This document shows, piece by piece, positions 19,380-30,520 of a stretch of 42,025 bases of DNA. The notes below the pieces were generated by a model. It was not told where the DNA came from. It searched no databases and saw only the letters and a list, made by a program, of their open reading frames with translations. The DNA is from Terriglobia bacterium. Its GTDB lineage: Bacteria; Acidobacteriota; Terriglobia; JAIQFV01. The DNA lies in NCBI GenBank assembly GCA_028716525.1, contig JAQUPQ010000036.1, positions 1-42,025 of the forward strand, given 5' to 3'. Numbering within the stretch: the first letter of the stretch is position 1; each line of letters begins with the position of its first letter. The position numbers were made by a program, and so were the translations under genes.

Positions 19380-19775
19380 CCAGAAGGAGGCGTTCTGAAC
19401 GTATTTCCGCGATTTTGAGGCTTATGTTGCCCTCCTCATCAAGAGCTAATCGGGTTTGGGTATGAAAGTGACGATTTTTCCCGTTTCCCCTAGCAAATCG
19501 ATTCTCACTCGTAGTGCGATGTCCTGCACTCCTGCGTCAGGGCTTCTCAGTCATCTCAGGGAAACGATCCATTCGTAACAAGGGTTCTGTTCTGAATTGA
19601 GCCCATCTGCGATGATTTGCAAAAAGGCAATGAGGCTGCCTTTCTTCCGTTCGGATAAGCATAAGCCAGAGGATGCACCTTGAAGACCGGAATACTCCGG
19701 TTCAGTCGGGCATGTGGAATTCTTGCGCTGAGGCACATCTCGTCAAATCGCTAAACAATGAAGGGAGAGACAACA
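19380..19775 (+). ncRNA. Long leader or possible small RNA upstream of a secreted-protein gene
   Basis: About 395 transcribed bases with no convincing gene. Possible structures: GGAGG (about 19386) with CCTCC (about 19431); AAAGGCA/TGCCTTT around 19622-19644; ACCGGA/TCCGGT with loop ATAC near 19688-19703. A 38-codon frame (19462-19578) lacks a ribosome binding site and known similarity. No riboswitch class was recognised; cyclic-di-GMP (GEMM) consensus blocks are absent. It could be a 5' leader, an independent small RNA, or just spacer. Confidence 0.3.
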
Positions 19776-20849
19776 ATGCTCCATCGACGTTTGCTTACAT
19801 TGCTCATTTTAATCTGGCCGGTTATGGGATTTGCGCAGACTCTTTCTCCGCATCGATCGATTGCGTTTTCTCAGATCGCAGCGGGTGGAGGTTATGAAAC
19901 ACTCATCAACCTGACGAACCGTGGCCCTAACACCTTCAATGGAACCCTCAATTTCTTCCAAGGGTCAAACCAGCCATGGAATCCCCTGGTGAACGGTACC
20001 GCCCAGAGCAACGTGCCTCTCACCCTCGCCCCGGGAGCGACCATGACTCTCGACGTTACCGGCTCGGGGGGCGTGGGGGCGGGATTTGGAGTGGTCACCC
20101 CGACGGGAAACTCCGTCAGCGGCTTGCTCGAAGGGACACTGACCTACTACGTCAAGTCCGGCACCGGAACAGTGTTGGACAGTGTGGGTGTGGCTCCTTC
20201 TAATGAGATGTATGTGACCACGATTCCCTTCGACAATTTCAATACCATCGCTTTGGCCCTTGCAAACCTAAACCCCGTAGGCATCCTCGTTCACCTGAAG
20301 CTCTATTCGGCTACAAACCAACTGGTGCAGTCGTTCGACCAACCGCTTCAGAATATGCAACAAATCCCCAAGTTCTTGACCGAGATTTTTCCCGGGATCA
20401 ATTTGACTCGCGGACGGCTGGACATACAGAGTGATAATCTCTTCATCGGCACCGCGTTGACTGTGGTGGGGGGCCAGCTCTCCGCGTTGCCGTTCATCCC
20501 AGCCGCGAAAACCTATACCTTTAGTCTCAGCGGCGGCCCCGGCCCCGCCGGCACCGGCGAAGCCTGCATGTGGTTCGATGGCACTAATGTGCAAGGGTAT
20601 GCGAGAAATCTAACGCAGGGTGGACAACCCGTGGATGGAACGCCTAACTATTTTAACGGGCAGTTCTCAGGAAACACGCTCCTCTTTTACATGACAGGGC
20701 AAAGCGGAGGCCAGAGCTACGTTCAGTACTTCACGATAAATCAATTTTCGATTTCATCCCAAAGTCTCAATGGTTCTTGGATAGCCTTTCTCGTTAGTGG
20801 CGGGCCCTCGCCGGCCTCTGGAAACATTACTTTCACCGCGACCAATTGA
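19776..20849 (+). CDS. Secreted protein with one QIADGGG-type module
   Basis: 357 residues from ATG 19776, chosen because GGGAGAG precedes it and a clean signal peptide follows (MLHRRLLTLLILIWPVMGFA, cleavage before Q). Residues about 30-235 resemble the module found in the next two proteins: IAFSQIAAGGGYETLINLTN, then a FNGTLNFF strand, GATMTLDVTG, LEGTLTYYV and IGTALTVVGGQLSALPF. The C-terminal 110 residues (from TYTFSLSGGPGPAGTGEACM) form a different, beta-rich, Gly/Ser/Asn-rich domain that I do not recognise. There is no membrane anchor or sorting motif. Probably extracellular; the function is unknown. A strong promoter lies about 400 bases upstream. Confidence 0.8.
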   Translation: MLHRRLLTLLILIWPVMGFAQTLSPHRSIAFSQIAAGGGYETLINLTNRGPNTFNGTLNFFQGSNQPWNPLVNGTAQSNVPLTLAPGATMTLDVTGSGGVGAGFGVVTPTGNSVSGLLEGTLTYYVKSGTGTVLDSVGVAPSNEMYVTTIPFDNFNTIALALANLNPVGILVHLKLYSATNQLVQSFDQPLQNMQQIPKFLTEIFPGINLTRGRLDIQSDNLFIGTALTVVGGQLSALPFIPAAKTYTFSLSGGPGPAGTGEACMWFDGTNVQGYARNLTQGGQPVDGTPNYFNGQFSGNTLLFYMTGQSGGQSYVQYFTINQFSISSQSLNGSWIAFLVSGGPSPASGNITFTATN

Positions 20850-20981
20850 TGACCATTTTTGAAACCTTTGAATCGTTGTTGAGAAGTTTCACGGGAGAGC
20901 GTTTTTGCGTTTAAAGACTTCGTTAAGACTTGCCGATAAGAGGAAGCATTTGGCGTCGGCAGGCTTGCCATTGAGGTTCTT

Positions 20982-23900
20982 ATGAAACAATCAGCCATTC
21001 GAAAACAGGGTGTCGGGTTCCTGCTTTTTGCGCTTTTGCTCTCATGTTCGTCTCACGTCTTCGGACAGACTCCGGTTTCGGGTGGATACGGCAAGTTGCC
21101 CATGGCCTTCGAATCCAACCAGGGCCAAAGCGATATACCAGTCAGGTTTCTGGCCCGCGGACAGGGCTACGGATTCTTTCTGACACGCAATGAAGCCGTC
21201 CTGAGTTTGCATGCTCCCAGTCAGCAGAGGCAATCCGTGGTGGGACACGTTTCAAACAATATGCCCGGCTTGACGGCGGAGCCGATCCGGCCTCCGGCAG
21301 TCGTTCGCATGCGTTTGATGCATTCGAATCAAAATCCGCAACTTGCAGGCCTTGATCCTCAGACCGCCCGGACGAACTACTTCATTGGCAATGACCCCGC
21401 ACAATGGCGGCATGATGTACCCAGCTACAGAAAAGTGATGTACTCCCGGGTTTATCCAGGTATCGACCTGATCTATTACGGTAATCAGCAACAATTGGAA
21501 TACGACTTCGTCGTCTCGCCCGGGGCCGATCCCAAACACATTGAATTGACCTTCAAAGGCGCAAAAAAACTGGCTCTCGACCAAGAGGGCAACCTGCTGC
21601 TGGCAACCGCTTATGGCAACATCATGTTGCATAAGCCTCTCATCTATCAGGAGCACAGCGGAGAGCGTCAGGTCATCGATGGCGGGTTCATATTGGATGA
21701 CAGGAATCATGTGAAATTCCAAGTGGCAAGCTACGACACATCGCGTCGGCTCATCATTGATCCGGTGCTCGTTTACTCCACATATCTGGGCGGGAGCAGT
21801 ACCGATGCAGGCTACGACATCGGAACGGGAAACAGCGGCAATGGCATTGCCGTGGACGCTGATGGCAACGCCTATGTGGTGGGCCAAACTATGTCCACAA
21901 ATTTTCCTACAACTGCCGGCGTGCCCCAAGCTGCCAATGGCGGTTCCGTCGACGTCTTTGTCGCGAAGCTCAACCCCACAGGCACCGCGTTGGTTTACTC
22001 CACATACCTTGGAGGCAGCGGGGATGATTACGGCCGCGCTATTGCGGTCGACAGCAATAGAAACGCTTACGTGACCGGCTGGACTTCATCCAGCAACTTT
22101 CCGACAACAGGGGGAGCACTACAGCCGACTTTCGGAGGCGGCTCCATTCCTTACGATGCTTTCGTGACCAAGCTTAATGCTGCGGGCAGCGCGCTGGTGT
22201 ACTCCACGTACCTTGGAGGCAGCGGTGACGATTATGGTACCGGCATCGCCGTGGACAGCGACAACAACGCTTTTGTGACCGGCTTCACGACTTCGAGTAA
22301 CTTCTCCACGACCGTGGGAGCCTATCAGGCTTCCAAAGCCGGCGGGTATTACGATTCTTTTGTTGCCAAGCTTAATCCCGGTGGCAATGGTTTGCTCTAC
22401 TCTACGTATCTCGGCGGCAGCGATGATGATTTCAGCGACGCCATCGCCGAGGCCTTCGGCTACGCCTTTGTGACGGGCCGCACCTACTCTAACAATTATC
22501 CCACCTCGGTGGGTGCTTACCAATCGTCCAATGGAGGCGGCTCCAATTGCTTTGTGACCGCACTGAGCGGCGACGGCAGCGCCTTGGAATATTCCACCTA
22601 TCTAGGCGGCAACAATTATGGTGGCTGTGACGCCATCGCATTATCCTCCCTGGAATTAATCGGTATTTCCAAAGATAAAAGGAGTAATCCTCCCAAAACG
22701 TTCTGTGGTGGTCAATGTTTCATTAATGCTTTCGTGACAGGCGAAACCAGTGCCACGAACTTTCCCACGACGGCCCATGCGTTCCAGCCGACGCTCCGGG
22801 GCGGGGCTGACGCTTTTGTGAGCGCATTCGATTCCGACGGCGCTCTGACATACTCGTCCTACTTGGGCGGCTTCAACAATGATTACGGCACAGGCATTGC
22901 ACTGGGCCGAATCAATGGGGACCTCACTGTCTTTGTCACGGGATACACTTACGGGTCTACTTTCCCGACCACGGGATCCATCACGGGCGCTATTATTTAT
23001 GGAGGCTTCCCCAATGGCTTCGTCACGGCACTGAATTCGAACGATTTCACCAACTTGACACCCGTCTATTCCTCCTATTTCGGCGGAGGCGCTTGGGATT
23101 TTGCCTATGGAATTGCCGCCGACAGCAGCGGCAATGCGTACATCACGGGTATCACTTGGTCCTCGGACTTTCCCACTTCCGAAGGTGCATTCCAAACCTC
23201 CAAGGCCGGCTATTCCAACGCCTTTGTGACAAAGATCTCGCCGACTTCCGCAGTCGCGACCACCACTGGAGTGGTCTCTGCAGTCAATCCTTCCTGGTTT
23301 GGCCAATCCGTCACTTTCACGGCCACGGTCTCTACGGGAAGCGCAAGCAAGACGCGTGTGGGAGACCGCGCTGCTAAAAGCTCTTCATCCCCTTCGGGGG
23401 CTGCTGCCAGTCCGACCGGCACAATTCAATTCAAGGACGGAAGCGACGATCTGGGATCACCAGTGACAATGACTGACGGTTCTGCAAGCTACACTACATC
23501 GGCACTGGCTTTGGGCAGCCATGCCATCACCGCGGTCTACAGCGGAGACGCGGGTAACGACCCGAGCACATCCCCGATCCTCACACAAGTTGTCGTGGAA
23601 CGAGCCGATTTACAAATTACGGAAACGGCTTCCTCAGCCTCGGAGTTGGTCGGCACCAATGAGGTTTACTCCGTAGCGGTGACAAACTTGGGGCCCAACA
23701 CGGCCACGGGCGTGAGTTGGAGTGATGCGATTCCGTCAGGAGCGACAATGGGATCGTTCACCAATCCCCTGGGCTGGGCCTGTGGTCTGAGCGGCGGCCT
23801 TTTCACGTGCACCAAGGCTGCCTCCATGGCCATGGGCGAAACGGATTCATTTACCATCGCATTGACCGTGAATTGCGGGCAAGCCGATGGCACGGTGGTG

Positions 23901-25733
23901 GGAAACACCGACACGGTGACTTTTCCCGGATTCGATCCCGTCTCAACCAACAACTCATCCTCCACCGCGGTGACGGTTTCCAATCCGAGTTCGTCCATTT
24001 CCCCCCGCGCTGCTGTTTTCCGTTCTCGCGGCGGATTGGGAACAATTCAAGTGTCCCCTTCGAGCGCCTGTCCGTGGCTGGCGAATAGTAACGCGGCATT
24101 CCTGACCATTGTCTCTTACCCCGGCACAGGGAATGGAGCCGTCAGTTATAGCGTGGCGCAGAATCCGGGCAGCTCCACACGCAGCGGGACACTGACCATT
24201 GGGGGGCAGACTTTTACCGTCACCCAAACGACGGTCACTACGGACAACTCCCAAGCGGGCTGTGACGTTCCTGCCAATGGGGATTGCAGTTACCCGACAC
24301 CCGGGGCGGCTCAAGTTTTGGAAGCCGGCTACGCCACGGTGCAAGGCGCCACCAGTAAGAAACCCGGTTTGGACGTGAACCTCAATCAAGTGTATGGCAC
24401 AGCAGTGTTCAGCTTCACTCAACACAACGCCATTGTCAGCGAAGCCGGCGTACCCGCTCCTCTGCCCACAACCTCGGCGCGGATCTTTGTGGACTATCGT
24501 CCCAACGCGGCCGCCAAGACGAATCACCCGGCTGCAGGTGTGATCTCGGTCGACACGGGAATGGCCGTGGTTAATCCCGGGACCGCGAACGCCAATCTTC
24601 GCTTCACGCTTCGGGATGGAACCGGAGCGACTTTGTCCTCCGGCAGAGCCGCATTGGCGGCGGGAAATCACCGGGCGCTGTATATCGATCAATTGAATCA
24701 GTGGGCGCCGGACTTCATTCTGCCCGCAAATTTTGGTACGGCTATCCAATTTGGGACATTGACGATCACGAGCGATCAAGCCGTGTCGGTGGTGGCCTTG
24801 CGGATGACCGTGAATCAACGCGGAGAAACGCTGTTGACCACCACTCCGGTCGCCGATACGACGTCCGCATCTTCGAACGCATCGCTCTACTTGCCCCAAG
24901 TCGCCGATGGAGGCGGGTTCACAACGACCATCATTCTGTTGAACACCACTTCTTCCGTTGAAACCGGAACCCTGCGATTGTTCAATAACGATGGATCGCC
25001 TTTGTTGGTGCATCGGGTGGGAGATCCGCCGGGTACTGCATCACAATTCACCTACTCGATCCCGGCGGATGGCGTGTACTTCTTCCAAAGCGATGGAAGT
25101 CCAGGAACAATCTATACCGGCTCGGCACAAGTGGCGCCGAATGCCGGGATGATGACCCCGGCGGGTGCGGGACTGTTCCACTTCGCACCCCTCGGAACGT
25201 TGGTGGGCTCACAAACGGTGGTGACGGAATCCGGTGTGCCTTCCGCCATTCCGACGACACACGCTTTGATCTACGTGGATCAATCCCACAATCACATGAC
25301 CGGCTTGGCTCTGGCGGCGCCGACTTCGACGCCCGTCCATGTGACCTTTAGAGCGTTGATGCCGGATGGTGTGACGCCGGTCGGAACCGGGAGTTTGGAC
25401 TTGCCGGGGAATGGACACAATGCCCATTTTGCCCAGGAGTTCATCAGCAACTTGCCAGCGGGCTTCACGGGAGTTCTCGAGATAACTGCGCCCACACCGG
25501 TGGCCATGCTTTCGCTGCGGGCTCTGGTCAATGTGCGCGGCGAGATGCTGCTCGCGACTTTCCCCGTGGCCGATTTCAATCGGACCACGCCTGTTTCTCT
25601 CCTGATTCCACAGATTGCGGATGGTGGAGGCTATCAAACACAGATGGTTCTTCTTAACACCAGCCCGGTTTTTCAATACTGCGATCTCTTTTTCTTGGGC
25701 GATGATGGGCTTCCGCTCGATGTCGCTAAATAG
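20982..25733 (+). CDS. Giant secreted SBBP-repeat protein with Ig-like, DUF11, BACON-like and QIADGGG modules
   Basis: 1583 residues. Signal peptide 1-28 (VGFLLFALLLSCSSHVFG-Q). About 30-255: the domain often found before SBBP repeats (KLPMAFESNQGQSDIPVRFL). About 263-750: SBBP beta-propeller repeats (LVYSTYLGGSGDDYG, IAVDS, NAYVTGWT, NFPTTGGA). About 757-865: Ig-like group 3 (GTIQFKDGSDDLGSPV). About 870-1000: DUF11 (ADLQITETAS, VAVTNLGPNTATGVSW). About 1005-1085: BACON-like. About 1110-1583: two full modules and the start of a third (LIPQIADGGGYQTQM), where the protein ends. Residues 556-580 interrupt one SBBP repeat. GAGG precedes the ATG. Likely a cell-surface or released adhesion or binding protein; ligand unknown. 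Confidence 0.88.
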   Translation: MKQSAIRKQGVGFLLFALLLSCSSHVFGQTPVSGGYGKLPMAFESNQGQSDIPVRFLARGQGYGFFLTRNEAVLSLHAPSQQRQSVVGHVSNNMPGLTAEPIRPPAVVRMRLMHSNQNPQLAGLDPQTARTNYFIGNDPAQWRHDVPSYRKVMYSRVYPGIDLIYYGNQQQLEYDFVVSPGADPKHIELTFKGAKKLALDQEGNLLLATAYGNIMLHKPLIYQEHSGERQVIDGGFILDDRNHVKFQVASYDTSRRLIIDPVLVYSTYLGGSSTDAGYDIGTGNSGNGIAVDADGNAYVVGQTMSTNFPTTAGVPQAANGGSVDVFVAKLNPTGTALVYSTYLGGSGDDYGRAIAVDSNRNAYVTGWTSSSNFPTTGGALQPTFGGGSIPYDAFVTKLNAAGSALVYSTYLGGSGDDYGTGIAVDSDNNAFVTGFTTSSNFSTTVGAYQASKAGGYYDSFVAKLNPGGNGLLYSTYLGGSDDDFSDAIAEAFGYAFVTGRTYSNNYPTSVGAYQSSNGGGSNCFVTALSGDGSALEYSTYLGGNNYGGCDAIALSSLELIGISKDKRSNPPKTFCGGQCFINAFVTGETSATNFPTTAHAFQPTLRGGADAFVSAFDSDGALTYSSYLGGFNNDYGTGIALGRINGDLTVFVTGYTYGSTFPTTGSITGAIIYGGFPNGFVTALNSNDFTNLTPVYSSYFGGGAWDFAYGIAADSSGNAYITGITWSSDFPTSEGAFQTSKAGYSNAFVTKISPTSAVATTTGVVSAVNPSWFGQSVTFTATVSTGSASKTRVGDRAAKSSSSPSGAAASPTGTIQFKDGSDDLGSPVTMTDGSASYTTSALALGSHAITAVYSGDAGNDPSTSPILTQVVVERADLQITETASSASELVGTNEVYSVAVTNLGPNTATGVSWSDAIPSGATMGSFTNPLGWACGLSGGLFTCTKAASMAMGETDSFTIALTVNCGQADGTVVGNTDTVTFPGFDPVSTNNSSSTAVTVSNPSSSISPRAAVFRSRGGLGTIQVSPSSACPWLANSNAAFLTIVSYPGTGNGAVSYSVAQNPGSSTRSGTLTIGGQTFTVTQTTVTTDNSQAGCDVPANGDCSYPTPGAAQVLEAGYATVQGATSKKPGLDVNLNQVYGTAVFSFTQHNAIVSEAGVPAPLPTTSARIFVDYRPNAAAKTNHPAAGVISVDTGMAVVNPGTANANLRFTLRDGTGATLSSGRAALAAGNHRALYIDQLNQWAPDFILPANFGTAIQFGTLTITSDQAVSVVALRMTVNQRGETLLTTTPVADTTSASSNASLYLPQVADGGGFTTTIILLNTTSSVETGTLRLFNNDGSPLLVHRVGDPPGTASQFTYSIPADGVYFFQSDGSPGTIYTGSAQVAPNAGMMTPAGAGLFHFAPLGTLVGSQTVVTESGVPSAIPTTHALIYVDQSHNHMTGLALAAPTSTPVHVTFRALMPDGVTPVGTGSLDLPGNGHNAHFAQEFISNLPAGFTGVLEITAPTPVAMLSLRALVNVRGEMLLATFPVADFNRTTPVSLLIPQIADGGGYQTQMVLLNTSPVFQYCDLFFLGDDGLPLDVAK

Positions 25734-25834
25734 AAAATGGAATTTTCTTCGGCTTTCTCGCCGTAGATCAGTGGGGCGGTCAAAAAAGTCTTAGATTGAA
25801 TAATCCATCACTTTGCATTTAGGGGGGCTCTCTC

Positions 25835-28800
25835 ATGTTTCACAAGATCCAGTTAAGTCGTGTCCTGCGCTTTGTTGTCTTTGTGCTGGCGCTGTTGTGT
25901 TTGGTGAAAGGCGCCGTTCTGTTCTCGCGTTCGAAGAGCCAGGACGAGCCACAACAGACAACAATCACCGCCTCCCAATCAGCCAAGCACGCTGAGGCAA
26001 AGGGAGCTCACAGCCCCGCGGCCCGTGGCAGACTGTCGCTGCAGATTGCGGCCAACGTGCACAAGGCAGGGCCTTCAGAACGCCAGAAGATCAAAGAGCA
26101 GGACCCAGTCGGGCCCAACCTGCCCAAGGGGATGAGAGAGGAAAACGAAGAGGTCTCCGCGCAGCAGCTGCGAGACGCCGATGCGGCTTTGCGTCGCGGT
26201 GTGGAACCGGGTTTCCCTTACGATCCTGACGCTCGCAGTAAGGCAATTCGACAAATGCAAGAACAAGAATCACACCTTGCCACTGCCGGTCCGACGTGGA
26301 CTGTCCTGGGTCCTTTCACGATTCCGAACGGCGGCTTGGCGCCGGGCCAAACGCCCGCTCCGGTGAGCGGACGCGTGACCTCGATTGCAATTGATCCGAC
26401 GGACTCCAACAAAGTGTACATCGGCACCGCGCAGGGAGGCGTATGGCGGTCCACCGATGGCGGCACTACCTGGGCCCCGATTTTCGACAATGCGCAGTCA
26501 CTGGCGATTGGCGCTCTGGCGATCGCCCCCTCCAGTCCCGGCACGTTGTACGTGGGCACTGGGGAAGGAAATATGATCAACCAGGGAACTCAGCCCGGCG
26601 GCGCTCAGTCGTTTTTTGGTGTGGGTTTGTATCGAGTTGACAACGCAGACACGACGGCCACTTTGGTGGGGCCGATCAATCCACAGATCACAGTGTCGGG
26701 CCTGACCTACAATGTGTTTGCCGGGCGGTCGATCTCCAAGATTCTGGTTCATCCGACCAGCCCCGGAACCATCTTTGTTTCCACCACCAGCGGATTTGCG
26801 GGCAGTAGCGGCACTCAGTTGGCGGGCGTTCCGCCCATGGCCACGCTCGGCTTGTATCGTTCCATCAATGCCACGGCCGATGCCGGGTCCGTGGCATTTC
26901 AAAAGCTGGTGGTCTCCACCAGTGACAGTGTTGACAGCCCACCGACAGGCAATGATTCCATCAGCGACATGGTGATGGAGCCGGGCAATCCCAATAACAT
27001 CATTGTCGGCGTCATGCAGGGGCCCGGCGGAAACGCTTATCGAAGTACGAATGCCTTGGCGGCCACTCCGACATTCACTCAAGTGCTGGGAGTACCGGGG
27101 GCTCCGGGATGGAACTTAGGTGTTCGAATGATATTCGCCATCAACAAGGTGGGATCAAAAGTCACGGTTTATGTCGCCTCGGGCGAGAATCCCACGAGTG
27201 GGTGTGGGGCGCCAGGCAGCGGTGCCGCCCGTATGTCCGATGATGGTGGGGCCACTTGGTCGAACCAAGTCGGCGGCCAAGGATTCTGCGGAGCGCAGTG
27301 CTACTACAGCATGGCGATGGCGGTTAACCCCAACGATCAGCAGGAAGTCTTTCTGGCCGGTGGAAAACATGACTCCTGTGGCGGAGAAATTTTGCAAAAG
27401 GCCAGCGGCGGTGGAGGTTTGGTCCGCGACGACAGCGGTTTGCACGTGGACACTCATGCTATCGCATACGACAGCGCCGGAAACGTCTTCATTGGAAATG
27501 ACGGGGGAATTTGGAAACGTCCGGCGGGCGCCACGGCCGGTTCCCCTTGGACCAATCTGAATACCGCGCCGCTCAATACGCTTCAATTTGAAGGCCTCGC
27601 CGTTCATCCGACGGACCGAAACTTTACCGTGGCGGGAACTCAGGACAACGGAACGGAGTACCAAGTGACTTCGCCCGGCAACTGGCGGAATGCCGAGACC
27701 GGCGATGGTGGATATGTGCTGATCGATCAGAATTCCACCGATACCAATAACGTGATCATCTATCACAACTTCTCTCATCTCCGGCCGGGGGACGGAATCG
27801 GCTTTGATCGGATAGTCAACACCAGCTGCTTTCCTGTTCAGGATTCGTGGCCGGTCCGTGGAGACTTTGGCGGGTCAACTAGCAGCACGCCGGCCTGTGA
27901 CGGAACGGCGTTCTACACTCACAATGGCCTGAACCGGAGCAACAACTCCTTGGTCTACGCTCCCATGGCGCTGGGTCCGGGAAATCCAAATACGCTTTAT
28001 TACGGGACCGACCGCTTGTATCGCTCCAGCGATCGTGGCGATACCATGACGGTGGTGAGCCAGGGGCCGATCAGCAGCGATTCGCTCGGCGGAGTTCCCC
28101 TGAGTACGATTGCCGTCTCACCGCAGGACGACAACTATCGCCTGGTAGGACTAAAGAATGGGCAAGTCTGGGGAACCTCCACGGGATCGTCAACACTGGT
28201 GAGTATCGGCAATGGACCGTTTCCCGCGAATCCCAGCGGAAGTTCAAGTAAATTTGTGGGCCGCGCCGCCTTTGACCCTGGAAACAAGGACGTGGCTTAT
28301 ATTGTCTTCTCGTTTTATGCCCCGGCGGGGCAAGGTGTTTTTAAGATTTCGAATTTCGGGGCGGCGGCGGGTTCTTCACCGACGGCGCCGGTGTGGACGG
28401 CCGCCGGAACGGGTATTCCGAGCATTCCGATCAACAGCTTCGTCGTGGATCCTTCCAACTCCAACGATTTGTTCGCGGGCACCGACATCGGTGTGTACAA
28501 CTCCACCGACGGCGGGGTGACATGGAATCCCTATGGCACCGGACTGCCGCGCGTGCCGGTGTTCGACATGGCGATTCAGAATTCCAATCGCCTGCTGCGC
28601 ATCGCCACATTTGGCCGCGGAATCTGGGAGGCGCCTATTCAGGCCCAACCGGCGCCCCATCCGACTCAGGTGAATGTTCCGGGAAGTGGGGCGGGCATAT
28701 TCTCGACGTCGGGTTCGGCTGTGAACGTGAAAGCCGGAAGCGCCGTGGTGACCTCCGGTCCGGGAAATCCGGCTTACGGCACCGCCGTCTTCTCTCTGAC

Positions 28801-30112
28801 ACAAAACGGCGTGGTGGTTTCCGAAGTGGGTGTTCCGGCTTCTCCACCCACCACACATGGGCGCATCTTTATTGATTTCCGCTCAGGCGTTGCGGCTAAG
28901 GGAAATGAGCTCGACGCGGGCACCATTAATATTGATACCGGCATGGCGCTGGTCAATCGGGGCAACGCAACGGCTCATATTGCCTTCAACGTGCAAGATA
29001 GCACCGGCATTGGAATCCCGGGAGCGAACGGGGGCGGCACGCTGGCGGTGGGGGCGCATACCGCGCTGTTCATCGATCAACTCAACACCTTGGCCCCAGG
29101 ATTCAATTTGCCGTCCAACTTTCCAACGGCAACAAAATTTGGCTCCTTGGACATTACAAGTGACCAGCCGCTTTCGATCCTGGCGTTGCGTTCCACCACC
29201 AATCAACGCAGTGACGTGCTGTTGACGAGCACGCCGGTTGTGGACATGACGCAATCGCCCGGTTCCGGTCCGATGCTCTTTGCACAGTTTGCCGACGGCG
29301 GGGGATTCACCACCCTCCTGATCTTGCTGAATCCGACGAATGCAGTGGAATCGGGGACGTTGCACTTTTTCCTCGACAATGGAACTCCCTTGACCGTGCA
29401 GGCGGTCGGTGGAACCTCCAATTCCACTTTCCCCTACAACATTCCCGCCAACGGAGTGTTTGTATTGCAGACCGATGGATCGCCTGCGGCCATCCATGCC
29501 GGCTCGGTTCAGGTGATTCCGGATCCGGGCTCGACTACTCCTGCGGGCGCGGGCGTGTTCAGCCTGACTCAGGGCGGAATTTTGGTGACGCAGTCGGGCG
29601 TTCCGTCCGCGACGTCGACCACGCATGCTCACATTTACGTGGATGAATCGAATACCCATGACACGGGTTTGGCGATTGCCAATCCTTCGGGGACTGCGAG
29701 GTCGGTGACGTTGGCGGCATTCCAAACCGACGGTGTGACACCGTCCGGGAGCAGCAACGGACCGGTCAATCTGGCCGGCAACGGTCATACCGCGGCCTTT
29801 GTGGGTCAGTTTATATCCAATCTCCCCCCAGGATTTACCGGGGTGTTGGATATTTCATCAACTCAGCCGTTCGTGGCGCTGACCTTGCGGTCGCTGGTCA
29901 ATACCCGCGGCGACACCTTGCTGACGACGTTTCCGATCGCCGACTTTTTCCAGACGCCCGTCATGCCGCTGGTGTTTCCTCAGATTGCTGATGGAGGCGG
30001 ATTCAAAACCCAGTTTATTTTCTTGAACACCAACGGCAGCGCTTCTAGTTTGGCACTGAGCTTCTTTGGCGACGACGGATCGGCGATGTCGCTAAGTAAA
30101 TCCGGCCGTTAG
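25835..30112 (+). CDS. Giant secreted BNR/Asp-box propeller protein with QIADGGG modules
   Basis: 1425 residues. An N-terminal hydrophobic segment at 10-29 (VLRFVVFVLALLCLVKGAVL) may be a signal peptide or an anchor; then a charged stretch (about 35-145). About 150-930: sialidase/VPS10-like propeller with Asp-box motifs such as VWRSTDGGTTWAPIF, ARMSDDGGATWSNQ and VYNSTDGGVTWNPYG. About 965-1425: the same modules as the preceding protein (AVFSLTQNGVVVSEVGVP, ADGGGFTTLLILLNP, HIYVDESNTHDTGLAIANP, FTGVLDIS), two complete and a third cut after FFGDDGSAMSL. Sialidase catalytic residues were not identified, so enzyme activity is not claimed. AGGGGGG precedes the ATG. The gene starts 101 bases after the SBBP gene. 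Confidence 0.87.
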   Translation: MFHKIQLSRVLRFVVFVLALLCLVKGAVLFSRSKSQDEPQQTTITASQSAKHAEAKGAHSPAARGRLSLQIAANVHKAGPSERQKIKEQDPVGPNLPKGMREENEEVSAQQLRDADAALRRGVEPGFPYDPDARSKAIRQMQEQESHLATAGPTWTVLGPFTIPNGGLAPGQTPAPVSGRVTSIAIDPTDSNKVYIGTAQGGVWRSTDGGTTWAPIFDNAQSLAIGALAIAPSSPGTLYVGTGEGNMINQGTQPGGAQSFFGVGLYRVDNADTTATLVGPINPQITVSGLTYNVFAGRSISKILVHPTSPGTIFVSTTSGFAGSSGTQLAGVPPMATLGLYRSINATADAGSVAFQKLVVSTSDSVDSPPTGNDSISDMVMEPGNPNNIIVGVMQGPGGNAYRSTNALAATPTFTQVLGVPGAPGWNLGVRMIFAINKVGSKVTVYVASGENPTSGCGAPGSGAARMSDDGGATWSNQVGGQGFCGAQCYYSMAMAVNPNDQQEVFLAGGKHDSCGGEILQKASGGGGLVRDDSGLHVDTHAIAYDSAGNVFIGNDGGIWKRPAGATAGSPWTNLNTAPLNTLQFEGLAVHPTDRNFTVAGTQDNGTEYQVTSPGNWRNAETGDGGYVLIDQNSTDTNNVIIYHNFSHLRPGDGIGFDRIVNTSCFPVQDSWPVRGDFGGSTSSTPACDGTAFYTHNGLNRSNNSLVYAPMALGPGNPNTLYYGTDRLYRSSDRGDTMTVVSQGPISSDSLGGVPLSTIAVSPQDDNYRLVGLKNGQVWGTSTGSSTLVSIGNGPFPANPSGSSSKFVGRAAFDPGNKDVAYIVFSFYAPAGQGVFKISNFGAAAGSSPTAPVWTAAGTGIPSIPINSFVVDPSNSNDLFAGTDIGVYNSTDGGVTWNPYGTGLPRVPVFDMAIQNSNRLLRIATFGRGIWEAPIQAQPAPHPTQVNVPGSGAGIFSTSGSAVNVKAGSAVVTSGPGNPAYGTAVFSLTQNGVVVSEVGVPASPPTTHGRIFIDFRSGVAAKGNELDAGTINIDTGMALVNRGNATAHIAFNVQDSTGIGIPGANGGGTLAVGAHTALFIDQLNTLAPGFNLPSNFPTATKFGSLDITSDQPLSILALRSTTNQRSDVLLTSTPVVDMTQSPGSGPMLFAQFADGGGFTTLLILLNPTNAVESGTLHFFLDNGTPLTVQAVGGTSNSTFPYNIPANGVFVLQTDGSPAAIHAGSVQVIPDPGSTTPAGAGVFSLTQGGILVTQSGVPSATSTTHAHIYVDESNTHDTGLAIANPSGTARSVTLAAFQTDGVTPSGSSNGPVNLAGNGHTAAFVGQFISNLPPGFTGVLDISSTQPFVALTLRSLVNTRGDTLLTTFPIADFFQTPVMPLVFPQIADGGGFKTQFIFLNTNGSASSLALSFFGDDGSAMSLSKSGR

Positions 30113-30199: not shown

Positions 30200-30520
30200 G
30201 CCTAAGTCCCGCTCGGCGCATGCGCGTCAACCTAAGCAACGGAAGGATGATATTCATAAATTCCAAGCTCCAAGAATCAAATGCCAAATAAGCTCCAAAA
30301 TCCAAATCCCAAACCAAGTGACCATTGTTCACTCCCTGTCCCACAGAGTAATTTTGTCGTGACTTTGAAACAAGACGATGGCTTTCACGGCGTGGTTTGG
30401 CAACTTGGAATTTGGAACCTGGTGATTATTTGGAGTTTGGGCATTGGACCTTGGAATTTATTCATGTGCTTGTTGCTCCCTTAGGTTGACGCGCATGCCC
30501 CTTGCGGGACGTTAGACAAA
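30200..30520. repeat. Composite inverted element with NNCCAAA heptamer arms (element 3)
   Basis: The outermost arms are CCTAAG-type with GCGCATGCGCGTCAACCTAA (30217-30236) facing TTAGGTTGACGCGCATGC (30481-30498); both sides also carry GTCCCGC or GCGGGAC further out. Inside, the left arm runs through seven 7-base words (TTCCAAG, CTCCAAG, AATCAAA, TGCCAAA, then CTCCAAA, ATCCAAA, TCCCAAA, 30261-30313). The right arm (30396-30456) carries the complementary TTTGGNN words. The loop (about 30321-30395) is unrelated. With about 120-base arms it could form one very large hairpin or cruciform. Confidence 0.88.

Follow-up and report, generated by a model that had tools for sequence, protein, structure and literature searches.

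The ASRAH superfamily was defined with the structure of TM1070 (1nc7), a tetrameric protein; secreted ASRAH domains are arranged as dyads or tetrads, and sugar binding has been predicted for the superfamily (PMC2739507). The window analyzed here is a whole stretch of 42,025 nucleotides from a Terriglobia bacterium (GenBank assembly GCA_028716525.1, contig JAQUPQ010000036.1, positions 1 to 42,025). Three of its ORFs, all on the + strand (19758-20849, 20982-25733 and 25835-30112), encode proteins 1, 2 and 3, which alike begin with a hydrophobic, export-type N-terminus and contain homologous sequence, as found from the ORF list and from sequence and profile comparison. An earlier note on this DNA described the common part as one module of about 200 residues. 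The homology is real, but the module boundaries were placed out of register with the unit that folds. Alignment of 20 paralogous tails and profile comparison of their segments reveal the true repeat unit as a pair of ~110-residue beta-sandwich domains, A (consensus FPQIADGGGFxT..LxN..DDGxPL..IPANG..GSVQV..GAGVFS..GGxLVTESGVP) and B (consensus IYVD..TGLAIAN..NGHxAxF..GFTGVLDIS..LRxxxNxRG..LLTTxPxAD), which reach 79% when their profiles are compared with each other.

The three proteins differ in how they use this unit. Protein 1 (19758-20849, + strand) is a small secreted protein, with a signal peptide that probably starts from the ATG at 19776. It carries an ordinary single A-B pair at 19866-20507 (A at 19866-20204, B at about 20205-20507), which matches profile positions 1-114 (A) and 13-87 (B). 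The tail profile picks up protein 1 at 50 bits, and a single-sequence search of the genome also finds it, at E=9e-5, well above what chance would give. Of the motifs listed for all three proteins in the earlier note, those of proteins 2 and 3 are present, but the LRxxVNxRG ending is absent from protein 1. The description of the module as a common tail likewise fits proteins 2 and 3, where it is C-terminal, but not protein 1, whose pair is N-terminal (about residues 38-250) and is followed by a further domain of ~115 residues (20508-20846, + strand). A paralogue (L021 3841-4956) shares the layout of an A-B pair followed by this unnamed C-terminal domain.

Protein 2 (20982-25733, + strand), according to its domain matches, consists of DUF7948, SBBP propeller repeats, Big_3_5, DUF11 and BACON, followed by the closing tail at 24258-25730. 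Protein 3 (25835-30112, + strand) is a secreted protein with matches to a BNR/sortilin-like propeller and a C-terminal closing tail of 481 residues (28667-30109). The two tails, each ~480 residues long and 52% identical to one another, run up to the stop codon in the same order: the late half of an A domain, B, an intact A, B, and the early half of an A domain. All elements lie on the + strand, at 24258-24479, 24480-24890, 24891-25265, 25266-25604 and 25605-25730 in protein 2, and at 28667-28858 (strands s4-s9), 28859-29278, 29279-29629, 29630-29974 and 29975-30109 (strands s1-s3) in protein 3. The copy number given earlier was right for protein 1 (one), but "two plus a partial third" for proteins 2 and 3 was incomplete: the first copy is partial as well, and the part missing from it is the very part that the last copy supplies. 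Located 3' of the protein 3 gene is a palindromic repeat of ~300 bp (30200-30520), which has three further near-full copies in the genome with 93-96% identity; its shorter arms of ~60 bp occur at about 20 genome places, often paired, in the manner of REPIN or MITE elements. One palindrome copy lies ~560 bp behind another tail gene (L010).

The two terminal fragments fit together. In hhalign comparisons, the late half-A of the protein 3 tail corresponds to positions 55-118 of the intact A (99% probability) and the early half-A to its start, with zero overlap, so that together they amount to one A domain. The partial first and partial last copies are therefore best described as a split domain, and very probably act as complementary halves of a single A through which the chain closes on itself. 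AlphaFold2 was run in monomer mode on the protein 3 tail and 25 related tails (26 sequences). The protein 3 tail is predicted with confidence (pLDDT 92.6, pTM 0.90) to fold into four small beta-domains, one of them made of the first and last pieces, with strands throughout, including the C-terminal half. When the last 47 residues are removed, the strands at residues 2-4, 9-14 and 22-30 are lost and the strand at 37-46 becomes shorter. Over residues 1-40 the pLDDT falls from 91/83/92/84 to 81/73/78/73 (about 88 to 76), and the remaining chain keeps its strands and confidence almost unchanged. The loss of strands from residues 1-30 upon a C-terminal deletion means that the two terminal half-domains pair with each other in the model. 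We regard closure of the tail within one molecule as highly likely from these predictions, in which a monomer was modeled and the intact A of the same chain may have guided the outcome. A co-variation test between the halves, using 118 sequences, gave no clean signal even for the intact domain.

The split point was surveyed in about 118 tails, among 172 module proteins taken from the fetched loci. Nearly all of the tails are cut after strand s3. Complete tetrads of half-A, B, A, B and half-A number 72 in genomes of the window's family and 39 in a sister family, and all of these stand at the C-terminus. Five relatives display a shifted cut, moved at both ends: L011 and L020 (own genome), and L123, L127 and L163 (sister family). 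In these proteins s4-s5 belong to the C-terminal half and the N-terminal half begins beyond them, directly behind a TIG domain in L011 and behind the signal peptide in the other four. For the s4-s5 motif score only the C-terminal result was used; the diverged N-terminal strand defeated the score, and that side was assessed by visual inspection. L020 is a protein of 297 residues that contains half-A, B, half-A and nothing else. The three sister-family proteins are probably one orthologous group, and the shifted cuts probably represent three independent cases in which the halves have stayed complementary. In more distant Acidobacteriota the copies are of the ordinary A-B or A-B-A-B type. In L156, L157 and L168, from a sister family, there are longer arrays in which an early half-A is followed at once by a late half-A, with s4-s5 missing at the junction; this would fit closed units joined in series, or A domains that lost the hairpin.

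The module is not a local trio: a single query detects 55 matching stretches in about 25 proteins of the window's genome. At least 20 of the proteins end in the complete closing tail, while their N-terminal parts are otherwise unrelated, and the earlier remark that the module is attached to very different partners is amply borne out. Partners include FG-GAP propellers, sortilin/BNR and SBBP repeats, pro-kumamolisin, LRR with DUF11, NHL, Lcl and reprolysin-like domains, as well as a lamin-tail combined with an endonuclease/phosphatase-like domain. One further tail copy, located at a contig end, stands behind a GH44 domain. No recurring gene family was found up to 3 kb away from the tails. Several of the genome's contigs end inside tail copies. 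Two pairs of loci share nearly or fully identical stretches (L008 1-151 and L019 1-151, 96% over 151 bp; L016 3891-4017 and L018 4045-4171, 100% over 127 bp), from which it follows that near-identical tail copies exist, through recent duplication or gene conversion. The search covered the window's own genome and 60 relatives; module matches occur in 29 of these 61 genomes, with 18-42 matches in each genome of the window's family and of one other family (f3); the distribution across the phylum is patchy. A tail with 58% identity (L023 3622-5028) comes from a MAG titled Bacteroidetes, on a contig of 5.7 kb that was probably misbinned. The homology of the module, its architecture and its genome-wide reuse are established at the level of sequence.

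No named family in Pfam, NCBIfam or the PDB sequences matches the window copies, in agreement with the earlier note, but relatives exist and become visible through fold and profile comparison. Candidates such as DUF4232 gave only weak matches under the cut-off, and a search of a literature library found no publication on the module. The only confident PDB fold match in Foldseek, obtained with one of the four domains of the tail, is 1nc7, chains A and D, with probability 1.00 and TM by target of 0.66-0.67. Whole-tail searches of PDB and viral libraries returned low-TM sandwich matches only, birnavirus VP2 among them, and these were discarded. We compared the domains with an ASRT+FAEG profile built from Acidobacteriota genome sequences (ASRT and FAEG-repeat). 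Domain B reaches 94.6% over 76 columns, against 0.5% or less for nine other domain families from the same or neighboring proteins and below 0.2% for shuffled or reversed profiles. Domain A reaches 84% over 30 columns only, with controls at 28% or less (BACON at 28%). A profile search of the PDB retrieved 2ii7 weakly (E=0.62), and PF07100 is matched by one relative at 0.013. The Asn with which strand 2 of ASRAH domains almost invariably ends has a counterpart in the tail: N97 (B1) and N222 (A) are invariant or nearly so, and some B2 copies have Ala. The Trp with which strand 1 of ASRAH begins has none, as A has Phe (FPQIADGGG) at this place and B has no equivalent. DUF5719 (PF18986), which we take to be an actinobacterial ASRAH dyad, is found above its curated cut-off in 14 of the 61 genomes, several times at tail coordinates, and own-genome L020 exceeds the cut-off with 28.3 bits; the window tail itself has no match. 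On this evidence of fold and profile, the A and B domains are quite likely to be related to ASRT/ASRAH, and a divergent ASRAH branch is the best reading; membership is not claimed because the strand-1 tryptophan is absent. Two Acidobacteriota proteins with WYFAEG-type repeats and a weak ASRT match (L087 and L088, E about 9e-4) are likely a bridge between ASRT and the module.

We propose that A and B are ASRAH-like beta-sandwich domains, paired in the module, and that in proteins 2 and 3 two such pairs form a C-terminal tetrad whose register is half a domain out. With its terminal half-domains completing each other, the chain would enter and leave midway in one A sandwich, and the resulting unit would be rigid and closed; it may be the equivalent, in a single chain, of the ASRT tetramer. 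Once the protein has been exported, the tetrad would most likely serve as an autonomous docking unit, predicted to bind a glycan—a cell-surface polysaccharide, peptidoglycan or extracellular matrix—and so to keep propellers, proteases and glycosidases on the surface or on their substrate. Glycan docking at a surface or matrix, suggested by the ASRAH relationship and the protein context, has about an even chance of being correct, and we would put the explanation as a whole, a self-closing ASRAH-like tetrad that docks on glycan, on the same evenly balanced footing.

The earlier note had also offered surface attachment, secretion or assembly as roles for the tail. A C-terminal sorting signal for a dedicated secretion or attachment machine, comparable to the T9SS C-terminal domain of Bacteroidota, would account for one C-terminal domain common to many unrelated secreted proteins, and for the fact that every one of the 72 complete tetrads from genomes of the window's family stands at the very C-terminus. 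An obligatory C-terminal position does not hold in the sister family, however. There the unit stands directly behind the signal peptide, at the mature N-terminus, with 130-180 or more residues downstream of it (L123, L127, L140 and L163), is internal (L144), or makes up a whole secreted protein by itself (L134, L139 and L151). The N-terminal, internal and whole-protein occurrences make a C-terminal secretion signal unlikely and favor an autonomous binding or anchoring unit; surface attachment remains our best guess among the roles first suggested. The tail also matches no NCBIfam sorting-domain model. The short motif, C-terminal membrane helix and basic end of PEP-CTERM and LPXTG proteins are absent; the last residues of the tails lie in a beta-strand or immediately behind one. 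A SprA model, searched without a positive control, had no match in the genome or in any control.

With an open half at each end, the one complementary to the other, the unit would also permit domain swapping, by which tailed proteins could be joined head to tail into fibers or a coat, and the AlphaFold2 prediction was made for a monomer. We consider this improbable: the monomer closes with high confidence, the single-repeat L020 and the tail-only proteins resemble complete closed units, and the N-terminal half often stands behind other large domains. It is also rather improbable, if a little less so, that the tail does no more than protect against proteolysis, as a stable cap or spacer. The closed predicted fold, which hides the C-terminus inside a sandwich, and the diversity of partners suit such a role; the cost of 480 residues, the tail-only secreted proteins and the kinship with predicted ligand-binding domains speak against it. 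The glycan-docking tetrad is the reading that we retain.

Acidobacteriota are a dominant soil phylum whose secreted proteins are mostly unannotated. In some families a genome contains about 20-40 copies of this undescribed domain, on proteases, glycosidases and propellers; the domain would allow many secreted proteins to be annotated together, and the tail suggests how they may stay in place. The split A domain would provide a clear natural case of complementary termini closing a fold at the level of a whole sandwich domain, and relatives with the cut moved on both sides make closure directly testable. More speculatively, a subset of Acidobacteriota may display much of its secretome through one universal self-closing ASRAH-type tetrad, a circularly shifted single-chain ASRT tetramer docked on surface or matrix glycan, as an attachment route alongside those of sortase, PEP-CTERM and T9SS; we hold this wider proposal to be possible, if doubtful.

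Like the T9SS C-terminal domain, the tail is a common C-terminal beta-domain of unrelated secreted proteins, but it matches no model of that domain, is much larger, is not obligatorily C-terminal and belongs to another phylum. In the "velcro" closure of beta-propellers, a structural unit is completed by pieces from the N- and C-terminus; closure by terminal pieces is common to both, although what is split in the tail is an entire sandwich domain out of a tetrad and not a propeller blade. Distant relatives of the module exceed the curated cut-off of DUF5719, and the window copies do not match it. The likeness to ASRT/ASRAH (PF07100; 1nc7) extends to the small beta-sandwich fold, the profile similarity across most of B, the Asn at the strand 2 end and the secreted dyads or tetrads. 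By contrast, the module has neither the strand-1 Trp nor the SHExxCxxN signature, alternates two domain types, A and B, appears to close its chain by a half-domain shift, and is an accessory of many unrelated proteins. In the best reading, the A-B unit is undescribed in itself, yet a variant near the known ASRT/ASRAH-type domains.
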